A stretch of DNA of 33,433 bases from a virus: IMG/VR virus record IMGVR_UViG_3300048597_000210, positions 1-33,433 of that record. One strand, written 5' to 3'. The position numbers and the translations under genes are program-made. The number at the start of each line of letters is the position of its first letter. Positions within the stretch are counted from its first letter, which is position 1. A model generated the notes under the pieces. That model saw only the letters and a list, made by a program, of their open reading frames with translations, did no database searches and was not told the DNA's origin. Below, one piece after another: positions 1 to 33,433 of the stretch.

Positions 1-696
1 CGCCACGCTGAACCGCGCCGCCGTGCCGCGCGAGACGAAGCCACCGGACACGCGCAGGAACGGGAAGTCGGTCGCGCCGACGTTGCTCCAGACCTCGGTT
101 GTCGTCTCGCCGAAAAGCCACAGGTCACGCCCCACCCGCAGCGGCGCGACGATGTTGTCCGGCGCGCCCTCGGCGGATGCGAAGTCGAGCGCGTTGTAGG
201 ACAGCGGGTCATTGATCGCGGAAAGGAAAAACTCGGTGCTGTTAGGCCGCGCGTGGACGTAATAGCCGTCAATCACCGTCACCGCGACGGAACCGGGGAA
301 GTCCGCATCGGTGATCTGCGTCACCGTGCCGGCGCTGCGGTTGACCACCCACGCTTGGTAAGTCTCCGGCACCACAATGCACAGGTTTTCGCCGTTGCTA
401 TCGAGCGACACAGGCCCGCCGTTGACGATGCTGCCCAGCAGCGCGGGCGAGCCCACGGACGGCACGAGGTAGACGCCGGTTCCGAGCACCGCGTAGAGCG
501 CGCCGCCCATGACGTGCGCGCCGCGGATTGGCCCGACGCCGATGTCCTGCAACTGGCGCAGCCCCGGCGTCGGCAGCAAGGGAAGCATGGATTTTGCCGT
601 CTCGGGCTGCCTTTCCGAAAAGCAGTTGATCAGCCGCATTGCGCTGATCGGCAGGGACCGATGCGAATAGCTGGCGAGGGCGAAGGGAAGCCTCAC
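1..696 (-). CDS. P22 gp10-like packaged-DNA stabilisation protein, partial
   Basis: This reading frame starts at a GTG at 696 and is open to the window edge, giving 232 residues with the C-terminus missing. Early residues include ASYSHRSLPISAMRLINC, followed by a segment resembling TPGLRQL and then GVGPIRGAHVMGGALYAVLG. This is the pattern of the N-terminus of P22 gp10, a tail-hub and head-closure factor that retains packaged DNA. The rest looks like repeated beta-strand blades with DGYYVHARPNSTEFFLS and LWLFGETTTEVWSN. The start overlaps the stop of the HNH gene as GTGA. In P22, gp10 follows gp4; here three virion-type genes and an HNH gene lie between them. Family membership rests on motif resemblance and position. 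Confidence 0.85.
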   Translation of the reverse strand, partial: MRLPFALASYSHRSLPISAMRLINCFSERQPETAKSMLPLLPTPGLRQLQDIGVGPIRGAHVMGGALYAVLGTGVYLVPSVGSPALLGSIVNGGPVSLDSNGENLCIVVPETYQAWVVNRSAGTVTQITDADFPGSVAVTVIDGYYVHARPNSTEFFLSAINDPLSYNALDFASAEGAPDNIVAPLRVGRDLWLFGETTTEVWSNVGATDFPFLRVSGGFVSRGTAARFSVA

Positions 697-1217
697 GCGA
701 CGTGCTTCCACGCGCGGCGATCCACGACGCTTTGAATGGTGCTTGGCGAAACACCAAACATGCCGGCGAGGGCGGCTTGGCTGTGCGCGCGCTTTGCTTG
801 CGATCCACGGATGAAGCGCACAGCGTCTTCTGTCAGGCGCGCCGTGGGGAATTCAGACCCCCGCTTCATGGTGCCCGCCTCCAGCGCGTGCGCGATGTTC
901 TCGCTCCGCGTCACCCAAGTCAGATTTTCGGGTCGGTTGTCGTCGCGGACGCCGTTGATGTGGTGCGGTTCATGGCTCGCCGACGGCGGTTCGCCGTGGA
1001 ATGCCATGCAGACCAAGTAATGCGCGTGCCGCCGTTGCCCCTTCCGCAGTCCGATGTGCGGCGCATCCGCAGATGCGCGCGCGTTGCACCAGACATAGCC
1101 GTGCGGCGTTGTCGCCGCCGCCATAAGGCCGGGGCGCCAACGGACGCGCCTCGACAAACGGATGATGTTGCCCGCCGCGTCAGCGGCGAAGCCATCAAAG
1201 AACGGGATCGGCTTCAT
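693..1217 (-). CDS. HNH homing endonuclease with C-terminal helix-turn-helix
   Basis: 174 residues. The centre carries the HNH core EPHHINGVRDDNRPENLTW, with His-His, Asn and a second Asn-Leu element. The N-terminus (GFAADAAGNIIRLSRRVRW) resembles the beta-rich domain before the nuclease in NUMOD-type phage HNH proteins. The C-terminus reads ARLTEDAVRFIRGS, then LAGMFGVSPSTIQSVVDRR and ends WKHVA, a helix-turn-helix expected to contact DNA. Its ATG overlaps the previous gene's stop by one base (TAATG) and its TGA overlaps the gp10 start (GTGA), so it fits exactly between two virion genes. A free-standing mobile endonuclease is the best reading; the target site cannot be inferred. Confidence 0.88.
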   Translation of the reverse strand: MKPIPFFDGFAADAAGNIIRLSRRVRWRPGLMAAATTPHGYVWCNARASADAPHIGLRKGQRRHAHYLVCMAFHGEPPSASHEPHHINGVRDDNRPENLTWVTRSENIAHALEAGTMKRGSEFPTARLTEDAVRFIRGSQAKRAHSQAALAGMFGVSPSTIQSVVDRRAWKHVA

Positions 1218-2583: not shown

Positions 2584-3657
2584 TCACAGTGACAGCGCGG
2601 CGACAGCCGCACTAAGCCGGGAAGCGTTCATCGGGACGGAATGCACGGCAAGGTAACTGGTCTGGCCGAAGAAGTTCAGGCCGCCGGTTGAGTGCGACCC
2701 GTGCCGGAATGTCGTGAGGCCGCTTGTTGGCCCGCCGGACGAGCCGGCTATCGTCGGGGTGACAGACTCCCGCGCGCAAAGGATGATCTCGCCCGTGGGG
2801 AAGAAGCTGGCGCCGACATAAAGCGGCGTCGAGCCGCCCGCGATCCCAATCGTTGACACACTGCCGGAGTTGATGCCGCCCACTGTCGCATAGGCGCGCA
2901 GGTTGGTGCCGGCGCTTTGCAGGTCCACAATGTAGCGGTTGCTATTGGTGCCATCGTCAATTTGAAGGATCGTCTGATTGCCGGCCACGCCAAGGTTCGT
3001 GGCGTATCCCACCCAAAACACCGTGCAAGCACCATTGGCCGGAAGCCCGAGCGTAGAGAGTGACGCCGACATGAGATCGGCAGACCGCGTTACCGTTGCG
3101 CCCGCTGTCGGAACCCACGTCGAATAGAAAGAGCCCGCCTCAAGCTGCGCCCATATTGCGGGGTCCAGGCCGCCGCTAAGGTCAGTCACCGTGCATGTCA
3201 GCGTGCCGGCGCTTGGCGTGAAGCTGCGGATCTGGATGAGATTGCCCGAGTCCGTCGTCACGGTGTCCGAGTGCGCGCCGGAGAATACGACTTCCACGTT
3301 CCCGCCAACCATCGTGAATTGGTAGGGGACGGCCGCAACAGTGATGTTCTGCGTTGCGAAGGCGTTGGAATTAAGGATGAGGTTGGTGCGCGGCCCCTCC
3401 ACGAACAGGAAGCCGTTTCCGTCAAAGCGTGGCTCGTTCGCGACGTAATCTGACTTATTGCCGCCGCCATTCTGATCGTAGTTCGACGCGAACGTGCCGC
3501 CGACATGCGTGCGCGTGAAGGTCAGCAGCGGCGACAGCGTGCCGCTGCGGCGGAACAGTTCCGTCGTGGTGCCGGCCATGATGGCCCCACCCGCCATCAG
3601 TTCATAGAGATACGCCCGCCGCAGTTCTTCCTCGGTCGGTCGCTTGCGGAAGTTCAT
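2584..3657 (-). CDS. Fibre/spike-like virion protein with lectin-type fold
   Basis: 357 residues. The central part shows NGFLFVEGPRTNLILNSNAF and later FYSTWVPTAGATVTRSADLM, the layout I associate with phage head-spike or fibre domains (a beta-sandwich followed by an 'xYIPT...A(T/V)RAAD' turn). Residues 210-350 (ACTVFWVGYA, NRYIVDLQSAGTNLRAY, PLYVGASFFPTGEIIL) look like a concanavalin/LamG-type sandwich. The N-terminus is helical and charged (FRKRPTEEELRRAYLYELM), perhaps a virion anchor. The start overlaps the preceding stop as ATGA. A role in surface binding or decoration is inferred from fold type and position. Confidence 0.7.
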   Translation of the reverse strand: MNFRKRPTEEELRRAYLYELMAGGAIMAGTTTELFRRSGTLSPLLTFTRTHVGGTFASNYDQNGGGNKSDYVANEPRFDGNGFLFVEGPRTNLILNSNAFATQNITVAAVPYQFTMVGGNVEVVFSGAHSDTVTTDSGNLIQIRSFTPSAGTLTCTVTDLSGGLDPAIWAQLEAGSFYSTWVPTAGATVTRSADLMSASLSTLGLPANGACTVFWVGYATNLGVAGNQTILQIDDGTNSNRYIVDLQSAGTNLRAYATVGGINSGSVSTIGIAGGSTPLYVGASFFPTGEIILCARESVTPTIAGSSGGPTSGLTTFRHGSHSTGGLNFFGQTSYLAVHSVPMNASRLSAAVAALSL

Positions 3658-4421
3658 ATCGCGGTCCCGTAATCGAGCGTCACCGCCGTGCGGTAAGGCT
3701 CCAGGTTCACAGGCTCGCCGTCGTAGCGCACCGCCACCTGCCGGCGCAATTCGCGCTGCCCTTCCACGGCCCGCGCGCTCAACCGCGCCGCCCGCTGCGA
3801 CGACACGCCGAACGCATCGGCCATCAGGTCCGCGGCAATCGCCGCATAGGGCCGCGCCGCGAAGTTCGGGACCAGCGCCAGCGGCCAGGCCAGATCCTGC
3901 TTGTTCGCAATGCCCTTGCCGCGCAGCATCTCGTGCGCGTCGCGCAGCGCCTCAAGCGCCATCGCGGCATCTTCGAAGCGCGCCGTCTCGCCCTCGGCCA
4001 GAACGCCCATGTTCTGGAGCGCCAGCCGCACGAGCACCGTCACGTCAACGCCGGGATACACATAGGCGGTCAGGTCCAGCGTCCCCGCCGCGTCCGTCGC
4101 GGCATCGGTGCCCACCGCCACGAGCACGCTGTCTGCGGTGCCATACCGCCACCACGAGGCAGCAGCCGGCCGGACTTCCTCATCCCCGCCGGCCTGCGCC
4201 AGCGTGGACGCCGCAAGGAACCTGTCCGCGTCGGCCGCATCGCCGATGTTGAGCGTGATGGTCGGGCTTGCGTTGCTGTCCAGATCGCTGGCCGTGAGAT
4301 CGAAGGCCGCGACCACGTAGCCGGCCGGAACCGGCAGGGTCAGCAAGGTCGCGCCGGCCGAGAACGGCGTCGTGACGGTCGCACTCGCCGTCAGTGTGTC
4401 GAACCCGACCAGCGCGGCCAT
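3654..4421 (-). CDS. Decoration-like domain fused to P22 gp4-like head-completion connector
   Basis: 255 residues in two parts. Residues 1-123 resemble the separate 143-residue protein encoded at 4740-5171: VPAGYVVAAFDLTASDLDS and DAAGTLDLTAYVYP line up with LPKGAIVHEVKLTTTDMDA and PAAGTIDIAVHYTVE. Residues 124-255 look like the P22 gp4 family of connector or adaptor proteins: LVRLALQNMGVLAEGE, an acidic EDAAMALEALRD helix, then WPLALVPNFAARPYAAI and an Arg-rich helix. In P22, gp4 docks under the portal after DNA packaging. A decoration-like domain on the connector is unusual. The stop overlaps the next start as ATGA. Confidence 0.75.
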   Translation of the reverse strand: MAALVGFDTLTASATVTTPFSAGATLLTLPVPAGYVVAAFDLTASDLDSNASPTITLNIGDAADADRFLAASTLAQAGGDEEVRPAAASWWRYGTADSVLVAVGTDAATDAAGTLDLTAYVYPGVDVTVLVRLALQNMGVLAEGETARFEDAAMALEALRDAHEMLRGKGIANKQDLAWPLALVPNFAARPYAAIAADLMADAFGVSSQRAARLSARAVEGQRELRRQVAVRYDGEPVNLEPYRTAVTLDYGTAI

Positions 4422-4424
4422 GTG

Positions 4425-4733
4425 TCAGCCCCCCGCTTCCGCGAGGGCGGCGCGCAGCTTCGCCACGCCCCATCGCTTGTCATAGGTGACGCCGAGGAAG
4501 TCGAGACGCTCGCGCGCCTCGGCCGCGGAAATCTCGCCGTCGCCGTCAGTGTCCGCGCTGTCCTCCGCAACCGCCTCGCCCTCGCTCCAGTGCGGGTGCT
4601 TGCGGAGGAACGCGATATGCCGCGGGTCGGCGACCTCGCGCGCCACGCCCTTGATCCACGCGCCGGTCAGCGCATTCTCGACGCTGCCGACGCCCGGTTC
4701 ATCGGGCGGGCCGTTGTAGGTGAAGGTCGCCAT
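4425..4733 (-). CDS. Small head-module protein with canonical EF-hand loop and HeH-like C-terminus
   Basis: 102 residues. Residues 61-72 read DTDGDGEISAAE, which fits the 12-residue calcium-binding EF-hand pattern DxDxDGxIxxxE at every key position (Asp61, Asp63, Asp65, Ile68, Glu72). The final 25 residues (LDFLGVTYDKRWGVAKLRAA) resemble the short HeH/LEM-type helix-extended-helix domain seen in small phage head proteins. The N-terminal 50 residues are not recognised. It sits between the two decoration-domain genes with gaps of 3 and 6 bp. Calcium-dependent head stability is a plausible role but inferred only. Confidence 0.7.
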   Translation of the reverse strand: MATFTYNGPPDEPGVGSVENALTGAWIKGVAREVADPRHIAFLRKHPHWSEGEAVAEDSADTDGDGEISAAEARERLDFLGVTYDKRWGVAKLRAALAEAGG

Positions 4734-4739
4734 GCCGCG

Positions 4740-5171
4740 TCACTCCACCGTGTAGTGGACGGCGATGTCGATGGTGCCGGCGGCCGGCGTGGTCGCCGCG
4801 GCCTGGATCAGCAGATCCACCGTGGTTTCCGCCGCCAGCGGCACGGCCGCAACGCAGGTCGCCGCCGCGGTCGCGTCGTTCGCCATGCGCGCGGTGCCGG
4901 CGGCCTGGCCGGACAGTCGCCGGATGTAGCGCTCAGTATCGCCCGCCACGCCCACCGACAGCACGAGGCCGGTGGAGGCATCCATGTCCGTGGTGGTCAG
5001 CTTGACCTCGTGGACGATGGCGCCCTTGGGCAGACGCACCAGCGGATACACGGCGTTGAGCGTCAGTTCGCCGGTCGCGAACCCGACGCGGTTCCACGCG
5101 ATGGCGCTGTCCTGCCCACGCGGGGCGAAGGCCGGCGCCGTCGCGGCAACCGACTTGGAATAGGTCGGCAT
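4740..5171 (-). CDS. Head decoration-like protein (unknown family)
   Basis: 143 residues, predicted mostly beta. The central and C-terminal part resembles residues 27-122 of the gp4-like fusion two genes downstream, so the two domains probably arose by duplication. The gene lies directly after the major coat gene, where many phages encode capsid decoration or stabilising proteins. It has the best ribosome binding site of the late operon (AAGGAGG, 8 bases before the ATG), consistent with a need for many copies. Neither the cement role nor the fold is proven. Confidence 0.7.
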   Translation of the reverse strand: MPTYSKSVAATAPAFAPRGQDSAIAWNRVGFATGELTLNAVYPLVRLPKGAIVHEVKLTTTDMDASTGLVLSVGVAGDTERYIRRLSGQAAGTARMANDATAAATCVAAVPLAAETTVDLLIQAAATTPAAGTIDIAVHYTVE

Positions 5172-5242: not shown

Positions 5243-6340
5243 TCACGCATCCGCCGGGGCGCTGAACCAGCCGGTCATGATGCCGTAGTCCTTCGGCGTG
5301 TCGGTATCGCCGGTCGAGGCGGTGCCGTAGCGCATCTTGCCGACGCCGCGGATTTCCTCGCACGCAACGCCGCCCTTGGCGTCGTAGTCGAAGTCCTTGT
5401 TGATGGTCTTCGACCGCTGCGCGTAGGCCACCGCCACCGCCTGCGCACCGCACAGGAAGACCGGCGACGCCTGCACGCTGTTGCCGATGGCCACGCCGCC
5501 GATGGTGGCGCTGCCGGCGTAGAGCGGCATGTCGTCCAGCTCCTTGATGACCACGCCCTCGTAGTAGAGGTCCGCGCCCGTGAAGATCGGGTTCATCAGG
5601 CCGCGGGCGTAGGCGTCGCGGTTCACCGTCTGGAGCGACTGCGCCAGGTTGCGGAAGGTCAGCGGGTGGCAGAACGCGACGAACACGCGCTTGCCGTCCG
5701 AAACCTCAATCGGCCGGATCTTCGGGCTGGCCAGCAGCGCGCGACGCCGCATGAGCGAAATCGCGTTCGCCGTCAGCAGGTCGTTCGTGGTGTCCAGCGT
5801 CGCCATCGCGGTCGCGAAGGTGGTGGAGTAGTTGCTCGCCAGGGCGCCGAACAGCACGCGATCCGCGTTGTTCGTGACCCAGGTGTTGCGCTGCGCCGCC
5901 GTGGTGGAGCCGAACGCAACGCCGTCAATCGAGTGCATCGCCTCGATGACCTGATTGCGCAGATCCTCCAGCGCCCACGTCTTCAGGCTCGCACGCGCGG
6001 CCTGCCGCAGATCGATGGCGGAACGCTGGTTCTCCATCTTCGGAACCAGCACGGCATGCCGGCGCAGATCGACGGAGAGTTCATAGGAACGGGTGGAGAG
6101 GTCTTCCTCGTTCCCTTCCATGCTGGTGTTGCCGGTCGTGGCCGCGTTGGTGAGGCGGTTCACGAGAGCGAAGGTGAAGCGGTCGCCCTTCTTCCGGGTC
6201 AGTTCCTCGTTGATCTGGACGACGGAGGACTCGTCGGTGCCCATGTAGGGCTTGAAGACGTTCTCCTGGAAATACTCGACGAAAAACTGATCGTCCCACT
6301 GCTCGACCGTCAGACCGGTCGCGGCGCGAGTCTCAGCCAT
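5243..6340 (-). CDS. Major coat protein, N4-gp56/P22-type
   Basis: 365 residues, a normal length for this coat class. The N-terminus (GLTVEQWDDQFFVEYFQENV), then RKKGDRFTFALVNRLTNAA, a stretch beginning DLRRHAVLVPKMENQRSAID, and a C-terminal GWFSAPADA match the layout of N4-gp56 family HK97-fold coat proteins. The acidic GNEEDLSTRSYELSVDLRR region precedes the long spine helix. It builds the procapsid around the scaffold encoded directly upstream. A GCCCCT/AGGGGC hairpin at 6350-6367 lies just before its ribosome binding site (AGGGG, 9 bases before the ATG), and a further hairpin follows its stop. No proteolytic pro-region is evident. Confidence 0.88.
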   Translation of the reverse strand: MAETRAATGLTVEQWDDQFFVEYFQENVFKPYMGTDESSVVQINEELTRKKGDRFTFALVNRLTNAATTGNTSMEGNEEDLSTRSYELSVDLRRHAVLVPKMENQRSAIDLRQAARASLKTWALEDLRNQVIEAMHSIDGVAFGSTTAAQRNTWVTNNADRVLFGALASNYSTTFATAMATLDTTNDLLTANAISLMRRRALLASPKIRPIEVSDGKRVFVAFCHPLTFRNLAQSLQTVNRDAYARGLMNPIFTGADLYYEGVVIKELDDMPLYAGSATIGGVAIGNSVQASPVFLCGAQAVAVAYAQRSKTINKDFDYDAKGGVACEEIRGVGKMRYGTASTGDTDTPKDYGIMTGWFSAPADA

Positions 6341-7359: not shown

Positions 7360-8526
7360 CTAGGCCAGCAACAGCATCTCGATCTCGTCTTCCTCGTCGT
7401 CCTGCCACTCGGCAGGCACACGAGGCGGCGGCGGGCGCATCTGTCCCACCGCTGCCAGGTCGGACAGCGTTGCCGCCCGCTCCAGCTTCGGCGTCGGCGC
7501 CTTCCATTCCTGCGGCACAGCCGCGACAGGCTCGGGCTTCGTCCACTCGCGCGGGATGCCCCGCGACTTCGGGCGCAGCGGGCGAGTGCGCGCCCACATC
7601 TCGCCGAACGTGCCGTCACCTGCGCCGCCGTCGTCAGTGTCGGCAGCCGGTTCGCCGCCTTCGGACGCGCCGACAGCCGCAAAGGATGCGATGCCAGCGA
7701 ACGTGCCCGCGGCAGCAGCCGCCGAAGCGCCCACGCCCGCGAAGGACGCCGTGCCGGCAAACGTGCCAACGCCGCCGCCCGAGCCTGTGGAGTCACCGAC
7801 CGCCGCGAAGCTGGCCGCGCCCGTGAACGAAAACGCCGCCTCGGCCGCAGACGCGCCGACGGCCGCGAAGCTTGCCACGCCTGCCGTGCTGCCGGCCGAA
7901 GCCGCTTCAGACGCGCCGGTTGCGGCGAAGGACGCCACGCCCGCGAAGGTGCCGACTGCGGCGCCAGATCCGCCAACGGCGTCGCTTTCGAAGTCATCAA
8001 GTATCGGGTCAACTGCGGCGGAACGAACCACCACGCCCGGCGTCTGGACCGTCGTATGCACGGCCGCCGTGCGGACCATGACAGACGAGCCGTTGCGGTA
8101 GACGGTCAGCGTGGTGCCGACCCTCTCCACCTTCCACACATCGGCGGCGTTGTATGTGCCGATTGAGACGGTCGCGCCGAGCTGCGTCAGCGTGCTGCTG
8201 TTGCGCTGCCAAAGCTGGATGCCGGGCGCGAGACGAAGCCCGGCGCAGAAATTCGCGTTGTCCTGAAGCCCGACAACAAGCGGGAACCCGCTGTAAGTGG
8301 ACTGAAGGATCAGGCCCTGCACATACATGTCGGCGGTGCCGACATCCGCAGATTGAAAGCCCGACCCGCCGGCCGAGGTATCGTTGCCCTTTAGCTGGTT
8401 AGACGCGTTGATCTCGGCGCCGGATGCGGTGCCGCCCGAAAGCGTCCATGTCCCGCCACCCGACGCAGTGCGCCCGCCTAGATCGTCGCCGTTTGTCCCG
8501 CTGAAGTCGTCGGTAAAAACGGCCAC
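7360..8526 (-). CDS. Lectin-like repeat protein with acidic tail (unknown)
   Basis: 388 residues from a GTG. Residues 1-180 look like a concanavalin-type beta-sandwich (VFTDDFSGTNGDDL, ADVWKVERVGTTLTVYRNGS), as in LamG-like adhesion domains. Residues 191-290 hold five imperfect repeats of about 20 residues of type GTFAGVASFAAVGAS. Residues 320-380 carry three short motifs, PREWTKP, PQEWKAP and PAEWQDD, and the protein ends DDEEDEIEMLLLA. It sits between portal-proximal small genes and the scaffold, a place with no P22 equivalent. It may be a capsid-exposed fibre or an internal protein; neither is shown. Confidence 0.65.
   Translation of the reverse strand: MAVFTDDFSGTNGDDLGGRTASGGGTWTLSGGTASGAEINASNQLKGNDTSAGGSGFQSADVGTADMYVQGLILQSTYSGFPLVVGLQDNANFCAGLRLAPGIQLWQRNSSTLTQLGATVSIGTYNAADVWKVERVGTTLTVYRNGSSVMVRTAAVHTTVQTPGVVVRSAAVDPILDDFESDAVGGSGAAVGTFAGVASFAATGASEAASAGSTAGVASFAAVGASAAEAAFSFTGAASFAAVGDSTGSGGGVGTFAGTASFAGVGASAAAAAGTFAGIASFAAVGASEGGEPAADTDDGGAGDGTFGEMWARTRPLRPKSRGIPREWTKPEPVAAVPQEWKAPTPKLERAATLSDLAAVGQMRPPPPRVPAEWQDDEEDEIEMLLLA
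7657..7956 (-). repeat. Five imperfect coding repeats of about 60 bp
   Basis: The DNA encodes five copies of GTFAGVASFAAVGAS-like units with Ala/Ser/Gly linkers, each about 57-66 bp. Copies differ at many codons, so the array is old or is held at the protein level and is not a recent DNA amplification. Similar A/G/V/S repeats occur in other phage virion proteins. Confidence 0.75.
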
Positions 8527-9016: not shown

Positions 9017-9454
9017 TCAGTCCTCCGTTCCGGCCGATGCGGTCGTCAGGCTCGGCGTGACGCCGGACGAAACGCTGATGGATGGCGACACCGCGCCCTT
9101 GTAGAGCAGCACGCCCGCGCCGCTGGACGCGGTGCCGATGCCCATGTGCGTGATGGTCGCCGTGCCGCCCGTGCAGGCAGGGAAGGTGATCGTCGCGGCC
9201 GGCGACACGCTGTTGCCCGTCACAGTCCAGCCGGCGCCAGACCGCGCCACGGCCACGCGGGCATAGGACGTGTAACTCGTCTCGTTGGTCGTCTGATCGC
9301 CGGCCTCGCCGGGGTCGGACGTGTGGAGCGAGACATAGAGGCTGCCCGCCGTGCTGCTGCCGCGCAGGCCCGTTGCGTCGCCGATGTTCGCGGCGTTGGT
9401 GTTGTTGAACACCAGCAGCAGTAGCGCGTTTTCCCAAGCGTTCGACTTGCTCAT
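9017..9454 (-). CDS. Beta-rich phage protein of tail-fibre/decoration type
   Basis: 145 residues. The pattern SLYVSLHTSDPGEAGD, then SYTSYARVAVAR, ITFPACTGGTATITHMGIG and a final LLYKGAVSPSISVSSG is one I recognise in many phages (a small beta-rich virion protein often beginning with a 'LYVSLHTxDPGE' strand), usually unnamed. The ATG overlaps the portal stop as ATGA. A surface or decoration role is plausible from the fold and context. Confidence 0.7.
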   Translation of the reverse strand: MSKSNAWENALLLLVFNNTNAANIGDATGLRGSSTAGSLYVSLHTSDPGEAGDQTTNETSYTSYARVAVARSGAGWTVTGNSVSPAATITFPACTGGTATITHMGIGTASSGAGVLLYKGAVSPSISVSSGVTPSLTTASAGTED

Positions 9455-11628
9455 GCCAGCCCCATTGCGCGCCCGCGCTCATCCCGCATAACGGCCATGG
9501 TGCGCTTGCCTCGCTTCACCTGCGCAGCCCGCCCATCCGGGCCGCGAATGATCTCCGGAACCGCTGCCGCATCTTCCGCCAGATCGGAAACCGTGGTCTC
9601 GACGCGCGCCATACGCTGGCCAAGATCGCTCACCCCTTGCGCAATCACGCCGACGTTGCCGGCGATGCCTTCAAGCGCCTGCGCCAGCCCATCAATGCGC
9701 CGGTCGGGCTCGGGCGCCGGAGGCGGTGCCGGCGGCGCGACAGGCTCGGGCGGCGGCGGCTGCATCGCCGCAACCTGCATCTTGGTCTGCGCGTCGAGTT
9801 CGGCCCGGTAGCGCGCGAGCGCCGCGTCCTGCTCGGCCTTCCACCGCGCCAACGCCATCTCTTGCTCGGCCGTCTGAAACTGCAACGCCGCGTCCTGCTG
9901 CGCGGCCTCTTGCTTCAGCGCCGCGTCCTGCTGCGCCTTCGCCGCGTCAATCTGCATGCGCTGCTGCGCGGCCACCACAGCCGGGTCAGGCGGCGGCGGC
10001 GCGGCGTTCTCGCCCTCGCCCCGCATGCGCTCCAGGATCTTGTCCTTGTTGCGCAGCGTGCTTGCCTCGATCAGCGCATCCGGCGGGATCGGCACGCCGG
10101 CCTTGGCAAGCCCTGCCAGCGCCTCAAACTGCTCAATCTGGAGCGTGGCCACGTCAGGGCCCTCCTCCACCACGATGTCTACCTGCATCTCGGCCACGTT
10201 GTTCCGGATGACCGGCTGGCCCGTCATCGGATCAATGGCCGGCTGCCCGGTCATCGGGTCAATCTCGGGCTGGTTCAGCCCGACGAACCTCACGTTGCGC
10301 TCGTCGTCCGTGACCCTGACCCACTTCTCCGCGGTCCAATACTGCCGGATGCGGTTCCAGATCGCGCGGTACACGCGGCGCCGCCAGTGCCGATGCACGT
10401 CCAGCAGCGCGCCGATTTCGATCTGCCCGCCCTGCTGCGACAGCGCGATGGCCCGGCCGGACGCTTCCTTGCCCTGCTTGCCGAGCAACGCCGCGTTCGG
10501 CCCCATGATCTGGAAGACGCTCTTGGCCTCTTGCAAAGCCTGCGCCTGGCCTGTGGAAAGGTCGCCGGTCGGGCTGATGTCGAACCGCATCCCCGGCGCG
10601 ACCTGAATGTAGCCGTCCGGCTTGGCCAATTCCTGCCGCGCCGCATTCACGTCCTGAACCGCGCCCTCCTCGGCCACGACCTGCCGCACGCTCAGCAGAT
10701 GCACCATCTTGCGATGGCGCAGGTTGATCTCGTCCTGCGGGTCGATCAGGTTCCGGACGCTGCCATACCGCTCATTATCGCGGTTAACGTAGGCAGACGC
10801 GAACACCAGCGGGCAGTCGGACTTGCCCGTCTCGTCGGTGTAGGAGCACGGCGCCGCGTCCTCCAGCCAACCGCCGCGCGTGAACGTGCCGCACATCCAC
10901 TCGTCGCCTTGGCGCCAGTAGAGCTGCACCACGCGGACACGCTTGCGCCGCCGATCCGCCCACACGTTCCACCGCGGCCGGTCGTCGTAGGTCTCCGTCA
11001 TGGAGACCGTCTCATACGAGACCGTCACGATATCCCGCGCGTCCGGCCACTTGGCCAGCAGATCGGCCTCATCCATCCACACAACGACGCCAAGGAACTT
11101 CGCGTCGCTGAAATCCTTCTCGCGACTGTGCGGGTCCCAAATCATCCGGTCCCAATGAACCTGCCGGATCTTGATATCCCAGCCGTCCGCGCTCTGCTCA
11201 ACGCACACGTCGGCGCCGCCCGCGCCCTCGATAATCATGTTTTCCCAGACGCCGCTGGCGGTCATCTGCAAGTCCGCGACATCGCAGACAAAGCGAATGG
11301 CGTCGGTTGCCGCCTCGGCGTCCTGTTCGTGCTGCGGCGTGCGCGGAAATGCCTTCGGGTCGGAACGCTGCTGCTTTTCCAGGCCGAGCAGATAATCAAC
11401 CTTGTCTTGGATTAGGTTGAAGGCAAGGGTTGGCTGATTGCGCTTCTTGAGTTCGGCGGCTTCCTCGTGGGTAAGCTGCCGGCCGTCGTAGTAGTCGCGG
11501 TCGCGCTCGGAACGCTGGCGGGGCTCGACGCCCTGGGATTCGGCGTCCTCCACCCAACCGACGACCATGTTCAGGGTGTCGTCGGACGTGCCGGCTTCCT
11601 CCCTGTCCGTGGCCGTGAAAGCGTTCAC
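9451..11628 (-). CDS. Portal protein, P22 type
   Basis: 725 residues, matching the large P22 portal class. The N-terminal region has RDYYDGRQLTHEEAAELKKR and RNQPTLAFNLIQDKVDYLLG, typical of this family, followed by the wing and stem region (GSVRNLIDPQDEINLRHRKM, MGPNAALLGKQGKEASGRAI). Two tandem copies of DPMTGQP lie at about residues 465-480. From about 570 the protein becomes a long Ala/Gln/Glu coiled coil, the equivalent of the P22 portal barrel, ended by a Pro-rich hinge and a basic tail. It forms the dodecameric DNA channel where terminase docks. The GTG start overlaps the upstream stop as GTGA. Confidence 0.92.
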   Translation of the reverse strand: MNAFTATDREEAGTSDDTLNMVVGWVEDAESQGVEPRQRSERDRDYYDGRQLTHEEAAELKKRNQPTLAFNLIQDKVDYLLGLEKQQRSDPKAFPRTPQHEQDAEAATDAIRFVCDVADLQMTASGVWENMIIEGAGGADVCVEQSADGWDIKIRQVHWDRMIWDPHSREKDFSDAKFLGVVVWMDEADLLAKWPDARDIVTVSYETVSMTETYDDRPRWNVWADRRRKRVRVVQLYWRQGDEWMCGTFTRGGWLEDAAPCSYTDETGKSDCPLVFASAYVNRDNERYGSVRNLIDPQDEINLRHRKMVHLLSVRQVVAEEGAVQDVNAARQELAKPDGYIQVAPGMRFDISPTGDLSTGQAQALQEAKSVFQIMGPNAALLGKQGKEASGRAIALSQQGGQIEIGALLDVHRHWRRRVYRAIWNRIRQYWTAEKWVRVTDDERNVRFVGLNQPEIDPMTGQPAIDPMTGQPVIRNNVAEMQVDIVVEEGPDVATLQIEQFEALAGLAKAGVPIPPDALIEASTLRNKDKILERMRGEGENAAPPPPDPAVVAAQQRMQIDAAKAQQDAALKQEAAQQDAALQFQTAEQEMALARWKAEQDAALARYRAELDAQTKMQVAAMQPPPPEPVAPPAPPPAPEPDRRIDGLAQALEGIAGNVGVIAQGVSDLGQRMARVETTVSDLAEDAAAVPEIIRGPDGRAAQVKRGKRTMAVMRDERGRAMGLA

Positions 11629-11780: not shown

Positions 11781-11989
11781 CAGGCAGCCCTCCGCACGGG
11801 CAGATGCGCCCGGATTTCCGAAATGGCCTCGTCAACACGGCTGTTGCACGCCCGCAGCAGCAGCGCCGCCTGCGTTGCCTTGCACGTCCGCGGGTAGTGC
11901 ATCAGGAAGCGCCGGAACTCGCCCGGCAGCGCGTCGAATGCCGCCATCTGCTCAACTGCGCGGGGGCACGGCGCTAGACCGTCTTCCAC
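11780..11989 (-). CDS. Small helical protein next to terminase (unknown)
   Basis: 69 residues from the GTG at 11989, which has a GGGGGC element 9 bases upstream and overlaps the terminase stop by 16 bp. A TTG at 12019 or an ATG at 11947 are alternative starts. The core FDALPGEFRRFLMHYPRTCK followed by a second helical pair resembles small proteins often found beside podoviral terminases ('LP..LRR.L...P'), which have no named function. Its TGA overlaps the zinc-ribbon ATG. Confidence 0.6.
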   Translation of the reverse strand: MEDGLAPCPRAVEQMAAFDALPGEFRRFLMHYPRTCKATQAALLLRACNSRVDEAISEIRAHLPVRRAA

Positions 11990-13425
11990 GAGTTGCCCCC
12001 ATCGCCGCGCTTTGCCCAACGGTCCCGAGGCGGCGGGCCTGCCGGCGCCTTCGCGCCAACCACCATCGTGTCGAGCAACTGCCCGACCAGCCCGAGCGCA
12101 TCCACCTGGTCGTCATGCTTGCCGGCGGGGAACGCCAGCAGCTCGGCCTCCAGGTCTGCAATCCACGGCGCGTCCGGACGCATCCGCAGCCCGTCCAGCG
12201 CCATGCGCCCGATGATGGACTGCGCCCTCACCGCCTTGTCGCCACGCGTCGGAAACTGCCGGCGCGACGTGAACGTCTTTCGCTCCCGCATCCGGCGCTC
12301 AAGGAACGGCCCGATGCCGGCCCGGATCTGGCCGTTCTCCTCAGCCCACGCGAGCGGCTTCCACTTCGCGATCAGGTCGCACAGCGCCTCAATCCACACG
12401 CCCGCGTCAGCCTGCGCCCGCCACAGGTCCAGCAAATGCAACTTGCCGGCCGGGTCCATCCCGACCACGGCGTGCACCGTGTAGTCGCCGCCGTCTGCCG
12501 TCACCGCGTAGTCGCTCGCGCCGTAGACCCGCATGCGCTCAGGAGCGGGCGGCGGTTCACGCAAGAGCCATTGCCGCCTGAATAGCGAGCCTTCGGCCGG
12601 TGCCGGGCGCTGCTGATACAGCGCCGCCCATGTGCGAGCCTCGGCGCCGTCCCGCTTGCGCAGCAGGTCCGCGCCGTAGCCGTATTCGTCATCGCCCCAC
12701 AGCGCGTCACCGGGGCGACGGCCGAGCGGGTCGTTAGGATCTTCCGCGATGGCCGGCAGGCTCAACACCCGCCACCTGTGCGCCTCGCGCTCAAGCAGGC
12801 GGCCGGCGAGGTCATCCTCGTGCCAGCGGGTTTGCACCAGCACGATGCCTGCGCCCGGCCGTAGCCGCGTCGTCAGGTCGTCCTGGAACCACTCCCACAC
12901 GCGATTGCGGCGGGTTTCGCTGTCCGCGTCCTCTCGGGACCGGATAGGGTCGTCAATCACCGCCAGATCGGCGCGTAGGCCAGTAATCACGCCGCCAACG
13001 CCGGCAGCGCGGTATTGCCCGCCGTTGCTCGTGGTCCACAGTTCCTCGGCCTCGCGCTCAAGCCGGTAACGCAGGACCGCGCCGTGCTCCCGCACTCGCG
13101 ACCGAACCCGCCGGCTGAACGACTGCGCCAGATCCGCGGTATTGCTCGCGGCGATGATGCTCAGGTCCGGCGCCTGGGCCAGATACCACGGCGGGAACAG
13201 GTCCGACGTGTAGGTGGACTTCGCCGAGCCCGGCGGCATGAAGACCATCAGGCGGTCGTTGTGGCCCGATGCCACGTCGGCCAGTTCGCGAATCAGCAGC
13301 CTATGGTGCGCCGCCGGCTTGAGGCCCCGCGGCGCGAGCGCGTAGTCACACCAGCGCGCGAGATCACGCCTAATCAGGCGCCGTGCTAGAAGCGCCTCGG
13401 CTGCCTCGGCTTGCGATAGCGGCAA
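11974..13425 (-). CDS. Terminase large subunit (packaging ATPase-nuclease)
   Basis: 483 residues. The ATPase domain has Walker A VFMPPGSAKST (about 61-71), Walker B DLAVIDDPI, and a coupling-motif-like LVQTRWHEDDLAGRL. The C-terminal RNase H-like nuclease shows YGASDYAVTADGGDY, then WAEENGQ and the acidic KHDDQVDALGLV element, which bind metal. This is the Terminase_6 type architecture. It pumps DNA into the procapsid through the portal and cuts it. The first plausible start is TTG at 13425, overlapping the small-subunit gene by 56 bp. An AGGA element lies only 2-3 bases before that TTG, so the exact start is uncertain. Confidence 0.93.
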   Translation of the reverse strand: MPLSQAEAAEALLARRLIRRDLARWCDYALAPRGLKPAAHHRLLIRELADVASGHNDRLMVFMPPGSAKSTYTSDLFPPWYLAQAPDLSIIAASNTADLAQSFSRRVRSRVREHGAVLRYRLEREAEELWTTSNGGQYRAAGVGGVITGLRADLAVIDDPIRSREDADSETRRNRVWEWFQDDLTTRLRPGAGIVLVQTRWHEDDLAGRLLEREAHRWRVLSLPAIAEDPNDPLGRRPGDALWGDDEYGYGADLLRKRDGAEARTWAALYQQRPAPAEGSLFRRQWLLREPPPAPERMRVYGASDYAVTADGGDYTVHAVVGMDPAGKLHLLDLWRAQADAGVWIEALCDLIAKWKPLAWAEENGQIRAGIGPFLERRMRERKTFTSRRQFPTRGDKAVRAQSIIGRMALDGLRMRPDAPWIADLEAELLAFPAGKHDDQVDALGLVGQLLDTMVVGAKAPAGPPPRDRWAKRGDGGNSWKTV

Positions 13426-20278: not shown

Positions 20279-20739
20279 GCCGCGACTTCCCAGCGCAGTT
20301 TCGCTTGGCCCGTCACGGTCTGCCATTCGAGCCCTGGTCGGTTCGTCCATGCCGCGCCCGTTGCGCCCGGCAATTCCGCCACCACGCGCCAGCCGGCGCC
20401 GCGCAGAGATGCGCCGCTCTCAGATTGCAGCGTGTAGGTGACGAGGCGCCGCCCACCCATTGCGCGCCACGCTCGCCAACAGCAGGCGTAGAGGAAGGAG
20501 CACGAACCCTTGGGCGCATCGTCCAGCACACAGCACCGCGTGACCTCGGCCACGTCCGGGCCTTGCGCCTGCAACTGCCGCGCAACGGGACGGGAGACGA
20601 TGGCGACGCCGACAAGCCGCGCGCCGTCGCTAGCGCCGATGGCAAAGCGTGCGCCGGCGACGGGCTTGTTGTGCCGGTGGAAATTGGCCACGACCTCGTT
20701 TGCCTCGGCCAGCGTCATGGGGACTGCATGCAGGGTCAT
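20275..20739 (-). CDS. XF1762-like acetyltransferase-fold protein
   Basis: 154 residues. The opening MTLAEANEVVANFHRHNKPV, then FAIGASDGARLVGVAIVSRP, the VTRCC segment and RRLVTYTLQSESGASLRGAG match the phage XF1762 family, which appears to have a GNAT acetyltransferase fold. No substrate is known for the family; protein or nucleotide acetylation would be a guess. Coupled by ATGA at both ends between VWA and VRR-NUC genes. Confidence 0.75.
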   Translation of the reverse strand: MTLHAVPMTLAEANEVVANFHRHNKPVAGARFAIGASDGARLVGVAIVSRPVARQLQAQGPDVAEVTRCCVLDDAPKGSCSFLYACCWRAWRAMGGRRLVTYTLQSESGASLRGAGWRVVAELPGATGAAWTNRPGLEWQTVTGQAKLRWEVAA

Positions 20740-21317
20740 CGCGCCCCGACCTCCAGCACCACTTTCTTCCTCACGGCCGTCGCGAATTCTTCCCAGCCGC
20801 TAACGCGCATGACGAACCCGTCCCGCGTCGCGAGCCGGTCGCGCATGTCGTCGGCGTCCTCGTCATCCCCGCCGACGATCAGCACGTTGACCCGCACGCC
20901 TGCGTCCTGCGCGGCATCGCGGGCTGTGGGCAGCGGCGTGCCGCCGTTGGCCTTGCCATCGGTCACGACATCCACGATCCGCACATCCCCGCACGGCGCG
21001 TTATCGAGCGCCGCCAGCGCATCCATGACGGCGCTGCCCGTGTAGGTGTTGGTCGCGCCGAGGCGGTCCATGCCTGCCAGGTGCTCGGCGGCGGCCGTGG
21101 CATCGGCGGCGCTACGCAGCACGCGCCACTGCATGGCCGGGTAGCTGTCCGCGTCGTATTGGATCGCGGCGATGGCGATGCCGTCCTGCTCGGCGGCGCG
21201 GGTAATGGCCGGCGAGCGCAGCGCCGCCGCGTGGCCCTCGCGCTGGCGTGCGAAATCGTCCGGGCCGATGGACCCGGACACGTCCAAAAGCAGGATGAGC
21301 GCCAAACCGCAGTTCAT
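20736..21317 (-). CDS. DUF1194-like von Willebrand A domain protein, no signal peptide
   Basis: 193 residues from the ATG at 21317. The metal-ion-dependent adhesion site is complete: LLLDVSGSIGPDDFARQ gives DxSxS at residues 12-16, a Thr lies in GATNTYTGSAVMDAL, and an Asp in VDVVTDGKANG. The REGHAAALRSPAI and TARDAAQDAGVRVNVLIVGG segments resemble DUF1194, normally exported proteins of 220-250 residues. Here the protein starts directly at the first beta strand, so it should stay in the cytoplasm. Function unknown; VWA domains bind partners through a divalent metal. A lone VWA gene in a phage early operon is unusual. Confidence 0.8.
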   Translation of the reverse strand: MNCGLALILLLDVSGSIGPDDFARQREGHAAALRSPAITRAAEQDGIAIAAIQYDADSYPAMQWRVLRSAADATAAAEHLAGMDRLGATNTYTGSAVMDALAALDNAPCGDVRIVDVVTDGKANGGTPLPTARDAAQDAGVRVNVLIVGGDDEDADDMRDRLATRDGFVMRVSGWEEFATAVRKKVVLEVGAR

Positions 21318-21454
21318 CCCTTTGCCGCGTCCCCGTATTCGCGGGCCTCGCGCTCCAGCTTGGCCACGCGCTCGTCCATCGCTTCGATGGCCTGGATCAG
21401 CGCCCCGATTGCGCTGCTGTAGTAGGCGAGGGCGATGAAGAACTGCGGGGTCAT
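21314..21454 (-). CDS. Mini-protein with hydrophobic and coiled-coil parts, 46 aa
   Basis: 46 residues from the ATG at 21454. A hydrophobic stretch (FFIALAYYSSAIGALIQAIE) is followed by a short charged helix (AMDERVAKLEREAREYGDAA). It may be membrane-associated or a small oligomer. ATGA overlap at both ends supports it; no family is recognised. Confidence 0.55.
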   Translation of the reverse strand: MTPQFFIALAYYSSAIGALIQAIEAMDERVAKLEREAREYGDAAKG

Positions 21455-21633
21455 CGTGCTTCCCCAAAAGATGCGACGCCGCCGGCCGCGGCGCGCGAGT
21501 TGTCGCCCAGGGAGGAACACAGGAAAGCTGACGCCCCGAGAGGCGTCGTAATTGCCGGGACCGCCGGCACGGATGCCACGTCGCCGCAGTCCATCAGGAC
21601 GGCCGGGCAGCGAGTGAAATTGGGATCTGTCAT
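21451..21633 (-). CDS. Small unknown protein, 60 aa
   Basis: 60 residues, mixed polar and small residues (MTDPNFTRCPAVLMDCGD, AVPAITTPLGASAFLCSS). Three cysteines, no metal pattern. ATGA at both ends. Not recognised. Confidence 0.5.
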   Translation of the reverse strand: MTDPNFTRCPAVLMDCGDVASVPAVPAITTPLGASAFLCSSLGDNSRAAAGGVASFGEAR

Positions 21634-32624: not shown

Positions 32625-33433
32625 ATGACCCGCATCGCCCTCGCCTCCGTGCTCGTCGCAGGGCTCGCCCTCGCCACCCCTGCCCTGGCGCAGGACGGCA
32701 TCCCGGACCGGCTGCGCCAGCTCGCGCGCAATTCCGTGTGGACCCAGACGGGTACGGTCACCCTGCAGTTCCCGACGCACCACCCGCAGGGGATGCTGCG
32801 GCTCGGCGAGCGCTTCGTGATGTCCTCGGTGGAGATCAACGAACGCACCGAGCGCTACCCGGCGCCGCGCAACGGCCTGGACCGCTCGCCCGGCCGCGGG
32901 CGCGGGCACCTGTTCGAGTTCGACGCGCAGGGGCGCCTGCTGCGCAGCATCACCGCCGGCGAGGGCGACATCTACCACCCCGGCGGCATCGACTTCGACG
33001 GCACCCACATCTGGATGCCCGTCGCGGAATACCGCCCGGACAGCCGCAGCATCATCTACCGCGTCGATCCCGCGACCCTGCGTGCGGAGGAGGTCTTCCG
33101 CTTCCCCGACCACATCGGCGGCCTGGTGATGGATCGCGCGAGCCGCACGCTCTACGGCGTCTCCTGGGGCTCGCGCCGGCTCTATGCCTGGCCGCTCGGC
33201 GCCGACGGCAGGCCAACCAATGCCGAGGAACGGCCCGAGGCGCTGCGCCGCCTCAACCCCTCGCACTACATCGACTACCAGGACTGCAAGTCCGTCGGCG
33301 ACGGGCTGGCCCTGTGCTCCGGCCTGAACACCTACCGGCCGCGCGGTGCGCAGGGGCCGGTGCTGGCCCTCGGTGGCGTCGAGCTGGTGGACCTCCGCCG
33401 CGGGCAGCCGGTGTTCCAGCTGCCGGTGGAGCT
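32625..33433 (+). CDS. DUF6454-like exported protein, partial
   Basis: Open to the window edge (269 residues seen). A signal peptide (TRIALASVLVAGLALATPAL) is followed by a predicted cut before QDG. The mature part has TLQFPTHHPQGMLRLGERFV, GHLFEFDAQGRLLRSI, GEGDIYHPGGIDFDGTHIWM and GVSWGSRRLYAWPLG, matching a DUF6454-type beta-propeller-like family of exported proteins. Function unknown. It diverges from the amidase. Confidence 0.78.
   Translation, partial: MTRIALASVLVAGLALATPALAQDGIPDRLRQLARNSVWTQTGTVTLQFPTHHPQGMLRLGERFVMSSVEINERTERYPAPRNGLDRSPGRGRGHLFEFDAQGRLLRSITAGEGDIYHPGGIDFDGTHIWMPVAEYRPDSRSIIYRVDPATLRAEEVFRFPDHIGGLVMDRASRTLYGVSWGSRRLYAWPLGADGRPTNAEERPEALRRLNPSHYIDYQDCKSVGDGLALCSGLNTYRPRGAQGPVLALGGVELVDLRRGQPVFQLPVE

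Follow-up and report, generated by a model that had tools for sequence, protein, structure and literature searches.

In several solved phage necks, the adaptor protein carries, in addition to its helices, a beta-domain that contacts the capsid. The adaptor of vB_DshS-R4C (8GTD) consists of an N-terminal Ig-like attachment domain followed by a helical tube domain, and it is the Ig-like domain that, at the portal vertex, meets the shell across a symmetry mismatch (PMC10276861). This domain has been reported to fall outside the Big2, I-set and FN3 families, and no kinship to a cement protein was reported for it (PMC10276861). A helical adaptor with a beta-sandwich is also found among the Class 3 neck-1 proteins (Milano gp14 and T7 gp11) and in phage 812 (PMC10491603, PMC12886913). 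In Milano, the sandwich is inserted between helices (residues 51-140) rather than placed at the N-terminus, has no described paralogy to the decoration protein of the shell, and adopts twelve conformations in binding the five-fold vertex, while the adaptors of P22 (gp4) and Sf6 lack a beta-sandwich (PMC10491603). In phage 812, the beta-sandwich of the adaptor contacts the capsid (PMC12886913).

The shell itself may be coated by cement, or decoration, proteins, and those of Pam1 (Pam1_06, PDB 7eel), GP4 (8h89) and KHP30 (7dn2) form a family of trimeric Ig-like capsid cements. In GP4, cements of this type sit on the shell as trimers at the quasi-three-fold axes, and in Pam1, the N-terminal arm of the cement runs under the neighbouring subunit and touches the E-loop of the coat protein (PMC9698820). 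The cement and the adaptor of Pam1 are encoded by separate, adjacent genes. In the locus described here, by contrast, a second cement domain that lacks the arm is fused in frame to the N-terminus of a P22 gp4-type adaptor.

The DNA that was analysed, hereafter called the window, is a viral stretch of 33,433 nucleotides (IMG/VR record IMGVR_UViG_3300048597_000210). Its minus strand, on which all the genes named in this paragraph lie, encodes the head of a short-tailed, P22-like phage, with the genes in the order terminase, portal, scaffold-like protein, coat, a 143-aa protein, a 102-aa protein, a 255-aa protein, two tail-like proteins and a gp10-like nozzle protein. The terminase (11974-13425; phrog_38) is followed by a P22-type portal protein of 725 aa (9451..11628; Pfam PF16510, E 2.3e-115) and, after the scaffold-like gene, by the major capsid protein of 365 aa (5243..6340; Pfam PF13252, E 1.1e-59; phrog_334, E 2.3e-70). 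The 143-aa protein (4740..5171, with AGGAGG upstream) is the next ORF after the coat gene, and the 102-aa gene (4425..4733) separates it from the 255-aa gene (3654..4421), which is one in-frame ORF. Both the 143-aa and the 255-aa ORF were found where the first-pass annotation had put them. The gp10-like gene (nozzle or head closure) is cut by the end of the window (1..711) and was recognized by an iterated profile built from P22 gp10 (E 3.8e-70). This arrangement is equivalent, apart from added genes, to that of P22, where the order is portal, scaffold, coat, a 69-aa ORF, gp4 and gp10.

Some other features of the window deserve mention. In the portal-scaffold interval, a 388-aa protein (7360-8526) contains a degenerate protein repeat, GxFAGxASFAAVGAS, and no tandem DNA repeat is present over the same positions. 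Among the non-structural genes, 20736-21467 encodes a protein with a DUF1194/von Willebrand A domain (E 2.4e-37), which is unusual in a small phage. At the right end, 32625-33431 encodes a DUF6454 protein (E 3.9e-77), which may belong to the host and lie beside a prophage.

The sequence pattern that the first-pass annotation had seen in the 143-aa protein and in the first 123 residues of the 255-aa protein (4053..4421) goes beyond chance. BLASTP aligns the two proteins with E = 2e-5, and their Smith-Waterman score is 86, whereas 2000 shuffles average 39.7 and never exceed 78. When relatives are included, profile-profile comparison relates the fused domain to the family of the 143-aa protein with a probability of 96 (E = 4.7e-9), where 50 column-shuffled controls reach at most 0.9. 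Against the cements of other phages, the fused domain reaches 99.6 (E = 1.8e-24) and the 143-aa family a probability of 98.7. In phmmer searches of PDB sequences, the best match of both proteins is the Pam1 cement 7eel_H (E 3.7e-14 for the 255-aa protein and 3.2e-5 for the 143-aa protein), and a joint profile of the two domains matches only the cements of Pam1, GP4 and KHP30 (7eel, E 2.9e-31; 8h89, E 4.9e-24). Direct scans of Pfam, PHROG and NCBIfam name neither domain of the fusion.

The predicted structures agree with this assignment. The AlphaFold2 model of the 143-aa protein has a mean pLDDT of 76.6, and block means range from 72 to 91 over residues 11-120 of the fusion. The 143-aa model scores Z 15.3 to the GP4 cement 8h89_J and 14.6 to 7eel_H, with all non-cement rows at or below 8.5, and that of the fused domain reaches Z 14.7 with 7eel_H (118 residues, 2.4 A) and 13.3 with 8h89_J. 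In both cases, there is a clear gap between the cements and everything else. Thus, the two domains are homologous by BLASTP, phmmer, profile comparison and predicted fold, and neither the differing folds nor the unrelated profiles that would have told against the first-pass annotation were observed. Each is a member of the family of trimeric Ig-like cements typified by Pam1, GP4 and KHP30. Outside this family, the foot of the R4C tail fibre (PDB 8gtc chains S/T, residues 118-230) resembles the cement fold with Z 9.3 and 8.5; these scores barely exceed those of unrelated rows, and the fold has possibly been reused on the fibre.

The remaining part of the fusion, residues 127-255 (3654..4043), is by profile comparison a head-tail adaptor of the P22 gp4 type (PHROG 637, head-tail adaptor Ad3). 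With hhalign, residues 125-255 align with the short adaptors encoded after the cement gene in related contigs (probability 97, E 8.5e-11), and the family formed by the fused and standalone adaptors matches P22 gp4 with a probability of 86.6 (E 4.4e-6; shuffled maximum 1.1). The register of this latter alignment makes the cement domain fall precisely at the gp4 N-terminus. In a profile search of the PDB with the adaptor half, the chains of P22 gp4 rank first, if weakly (E 0.011). The three fused sequences alone fall short of gp4 (7.9), and the link to gp4 consequently rests on the intermediate adaptors and on gene order: the domain is encoded between the coat and gp10-like genes, from the latter of which it is separated by the two tail-like genes, in a genome with a P22-type portal. 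With these qualifications, the proposal that one cement-fold copy is joined to a gp4-like connector was borne out by profile comparison.

The position of the boundary between the domains, placed by the first-pass annotation at residue 123, also proved correct. In the model of the fusion, strands extend over residues 8-123 and helices begin at 127, so that about three residues (124-126; 4044..4052) connect the last strand to the first helix. The adaptor half of this AlphaFold2 model is poor, with pLDDT mostly below 55, owing to the few aligned rows; a first combined alignment had placed the standalone adaptors on the cement half and was excluded from the modelling.

The fusion is not peculiar to the window. 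A search of viral contigs with the portal gave two contigs whose portals are 66% identical, and an alignment search with the fusion gave further contigs that bear it. In total, the module of four genes (coat, cement, small protein and cement::adaptor in frame) is present in two further lineages of viral contigs. In one of these (L022/L063 and L064), the fusion has 258 aa and the proteins from two metagenomes are identical; in the other, it has 257 aa in L065 and is cut by the contig end in L066, the DNA of which is 97.6% identical to that of L065. Homologues of the 102-aa protein occupy the equivalent position in all five contigs. The fusions of these lineages are approximately 53-58% identical to the window protein and align across the junction without a gap, and each of the two domains has a dN below its dS. 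In the window, the 102-aa gene and the fusion share a frame, with TGA CAC between them (4421-4427); the frames of these two genes differ in L022 and L065, and readthrough is thus not conserved.

The fusion was found in a small group of short-tailed phages. Among 32 other adaptor ORFs from related loci, none carries a cement domain and 31 lack any N-terminal extension; the apparent extension of the remaining one (L028) is an overlong ORF start that overlaps the cement gene in another frame. With single window proteins as queries, searches of viral contigs did not recover any relative of the 143-aa or the 255-aa protein, nor searches of genome contigs any of the coat protein, and a two-sequence alignment of the fusion did not match any genome contig. 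The 'tail adaptor' of KLEP18-1 (254 aa), which resembles the fusion in length, was considered as a further case and discarded, as it gave no match in cement or adaptor searches. In two related loci (L016 4158-6035 and L019 1-1821), P22-type portals are named '6-phosphogluconolactonase' in public records, apparently by misannotation.

The two cement copies differ at their N-termini. Before the DxD motif there are 58-74 residues in standalone cements (61 in the 143-aa protein) and 45-46 in all fused copies, a count that leaves out three very divergent second cement copies. Hence, every fused copy lacks the N-terminal arm of 13-29 residues that standalone cements possess. In the window, a longer N-terminus is precluded by an in-frame stop two codons upstream of the ATG of the fusion. 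The fused domain has therefore retained the core of the cement and lost the known grip on the shell, and the exact binding mode of a shell cement is impossible for it, since fused copies do not have the coat-gripping arm seen in Pam1. The earlier suggestion that the same fold caps the special vertex and coats the shell is plausible in outline, but an armless domain must bind differently from the shell cement.

Given the observed homology and fold of the two domains, their fusion in frame, its conservation and the loss of the arm, a role for the fusion can be proposed by analogy with other necks. The 143-aa protein would be an ordinary cement that coats the shell. The C-terminal domain of the fusion is expected to form a dodecamer, and the resulting adaptor ring would assemble under the portal carrying, by the same reckoning, twelve cement-fold domains. 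To judge from other necks, these would form a peripheral skirt that faces the capsid around the penton-less vertex, and could there hold the twelve-fold neck firm against the five neighbouring capsomers. Such a skirt would do the job of the beta-sandwich or Ig-like domains in the adaptors of R4C, Milano and phage 812, and it is because these contact the capsid that bracing the vertex is the most likely function of the fused domain. On balance, it seems somewhat better than an even chance that the fusion is a gp4-type adaptor with an N-terminal armless cement that braces the neck in this way and that the 143-aa protein is the shell cement. A counterpoint is that the standalone adaptors of relatives function without a cement domain. 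Moreover, the modelled junction of approximately three residues, as opposed to the long flexible loop of R4C, may limit the adjustment between symmetries.

Perhaps, instead of facing the capsid, the cement-fold domains point outward as an Ig-like collar that aids adsorption and has a weak affinity for glycans on the cell surface. It is known that Ig-like domains on the surface of phages can label host cells (Douge, PMC13033339), and the R4C fibre foot mentioned above (8gtc_S, Z 9.3), which is similar in fold, has been proposed to bind carbohydrate. Nevertheless, the match to this foot is near the background for the fold, the closest structures by a clear margin are capsid cements and not lectins, and the domain sits on a neck ring rather than on a fibre, all of which make a glycan-binding collar rather unlikely.

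It could also be supposed that the fused domain still works as a true cement, forming trimers with itself or with the 143-aa protein at the quasi-three-fold sites round the portal vertex and thereby tying the neck to the cement lattice. The whole cement core is kept, the DLDSNASPTITLNVGDAADADRF-type motif is preserved more closely than in the standalone copy, and cements akin to it sit on the shell as trimers (PMC9698820). By contrast, the arm that in Pam1 contacts the E-loop of the coat is absent from all fused copies, and a junction of three residues makes it improbable that neighbours on a twelve-fold ring rearrange into trimers. Trimerization of this kind is thus considered unlikely.

A third alternative is that the fusion is neutral, the adaptor acting alone after internal initiation at the junction or after cleavage, with the beta-domain as a passenger. 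In its favour, the window has GTG codons where the two domains meet, and the adaptor is a separate protein in most relatives. However, these GTG codons are not conserved together with a ribosome-binding site (in L022, the first position is ATT TCC), and an internal start was rejected for this reason; in addition, the N-terminal domain has been conserved across a large divergence with dN below dS. Neutrality is accordingly judged very unlikely. Finally, a single-base sequencing or assembly error that joined two adjacent genes, for which a TGA one frame off beside a GTG at the junction (TTGACGTGACG) would in principle need only one indel, was rejected as having a practically negligible chance, since two further independent lineages have the same fusion in frame and ungapped.

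Each kind of copy is a clade of its own, with 100/98 support for the fused domains and 100/98 for the standalone cements that accompany them, and the arrangement is therefore older than the split of the three lineages. In the first-pass annotation, the domain was described as duplicated. This description is borne out in part: the two copies are homologous, but trees differ on whether the clades are sisters, which they are in a pruned tree, at 45/72 support, and separate in a fuller one. A recent tandem duplication of the standalone cement may or may not have been the source of the fused copy. In Pam1, the cement gene immediately precedes the adaptor gene, which makes the fusion of neighbours a simple route. 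Extra copies are not unique to this group, as a second, very divergent and unfused cement-like gene lies directly after the first in two related loci (L010 9631-10038 and L047 5227-5841). That of L010 matches phrog_20969, labelled 'Rz-like spanin', a label that is probably wrong given that the gene sits in the head module.

The gain of a domain by an adaptor has a parallel elsewhere. The adaptor of Caenibius sp. WL plasmid p1 (WP_222558355.1; L019 6191-6817) is of the gp4 type (phrog_637, E 9.1e-11) and has an added N-terminal domain, although this domain belongs to another family (phrog_4137) and does not match cement profiles. This case suggests that the N-termini of adaptors gain domains repeatedly. 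In addition, two adaptors of 220 aa (L037 11193-11855 and L059 6456-7118) have extra sequence inside the helical domain, which recalls the beta-sandwich insertion of the Milano type.

With respect to described connectors, the first-pass annotation knew of none with this arrangement, and this holds in part. No description of an adaptor that carries a homologue of the phage's own cement was found in the open-access papers that were searched. Nevertheless, the adaptor of the siphophage R4C also has an N-terminal Ig-like domain that touches the capsid (PMC10276861), and the order of an Ig-like and then a helical adaptor domain in the model of the fusion resembles it. The R4C adaptor 8GTD was not among the matches in fold and profile searches, an absence that is compatible with homology. 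Compared with P22 gp4, the adaptor of the window differs in having a cement domain before its first helix.

These observations touch on two open questions, namely, how a twelve-fold neck is fixed in a five-fold vertex and where the extra beta-domains of adaptors come from. The kinship of the fusion's beta-domain with the shell decoration protein can be traced, and a domain of this kind thereby has a concrete origin. It is a real possibility, if somewhat short of an even one, that the adaptor acquired, by fusion, a copy of the shell cement that lost its gripping arm, one fold now serving both the ordinary shell sites and the special vertex. If true, it would show one way for plain P22-type adaptors to come by a beta-domain that faces the capsid, as in the T7, Milano and R4C adaptors. 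A single virion would also offer the same fold with and without the arm that grips the capsid, a clean comparison that could be read by structure determination.
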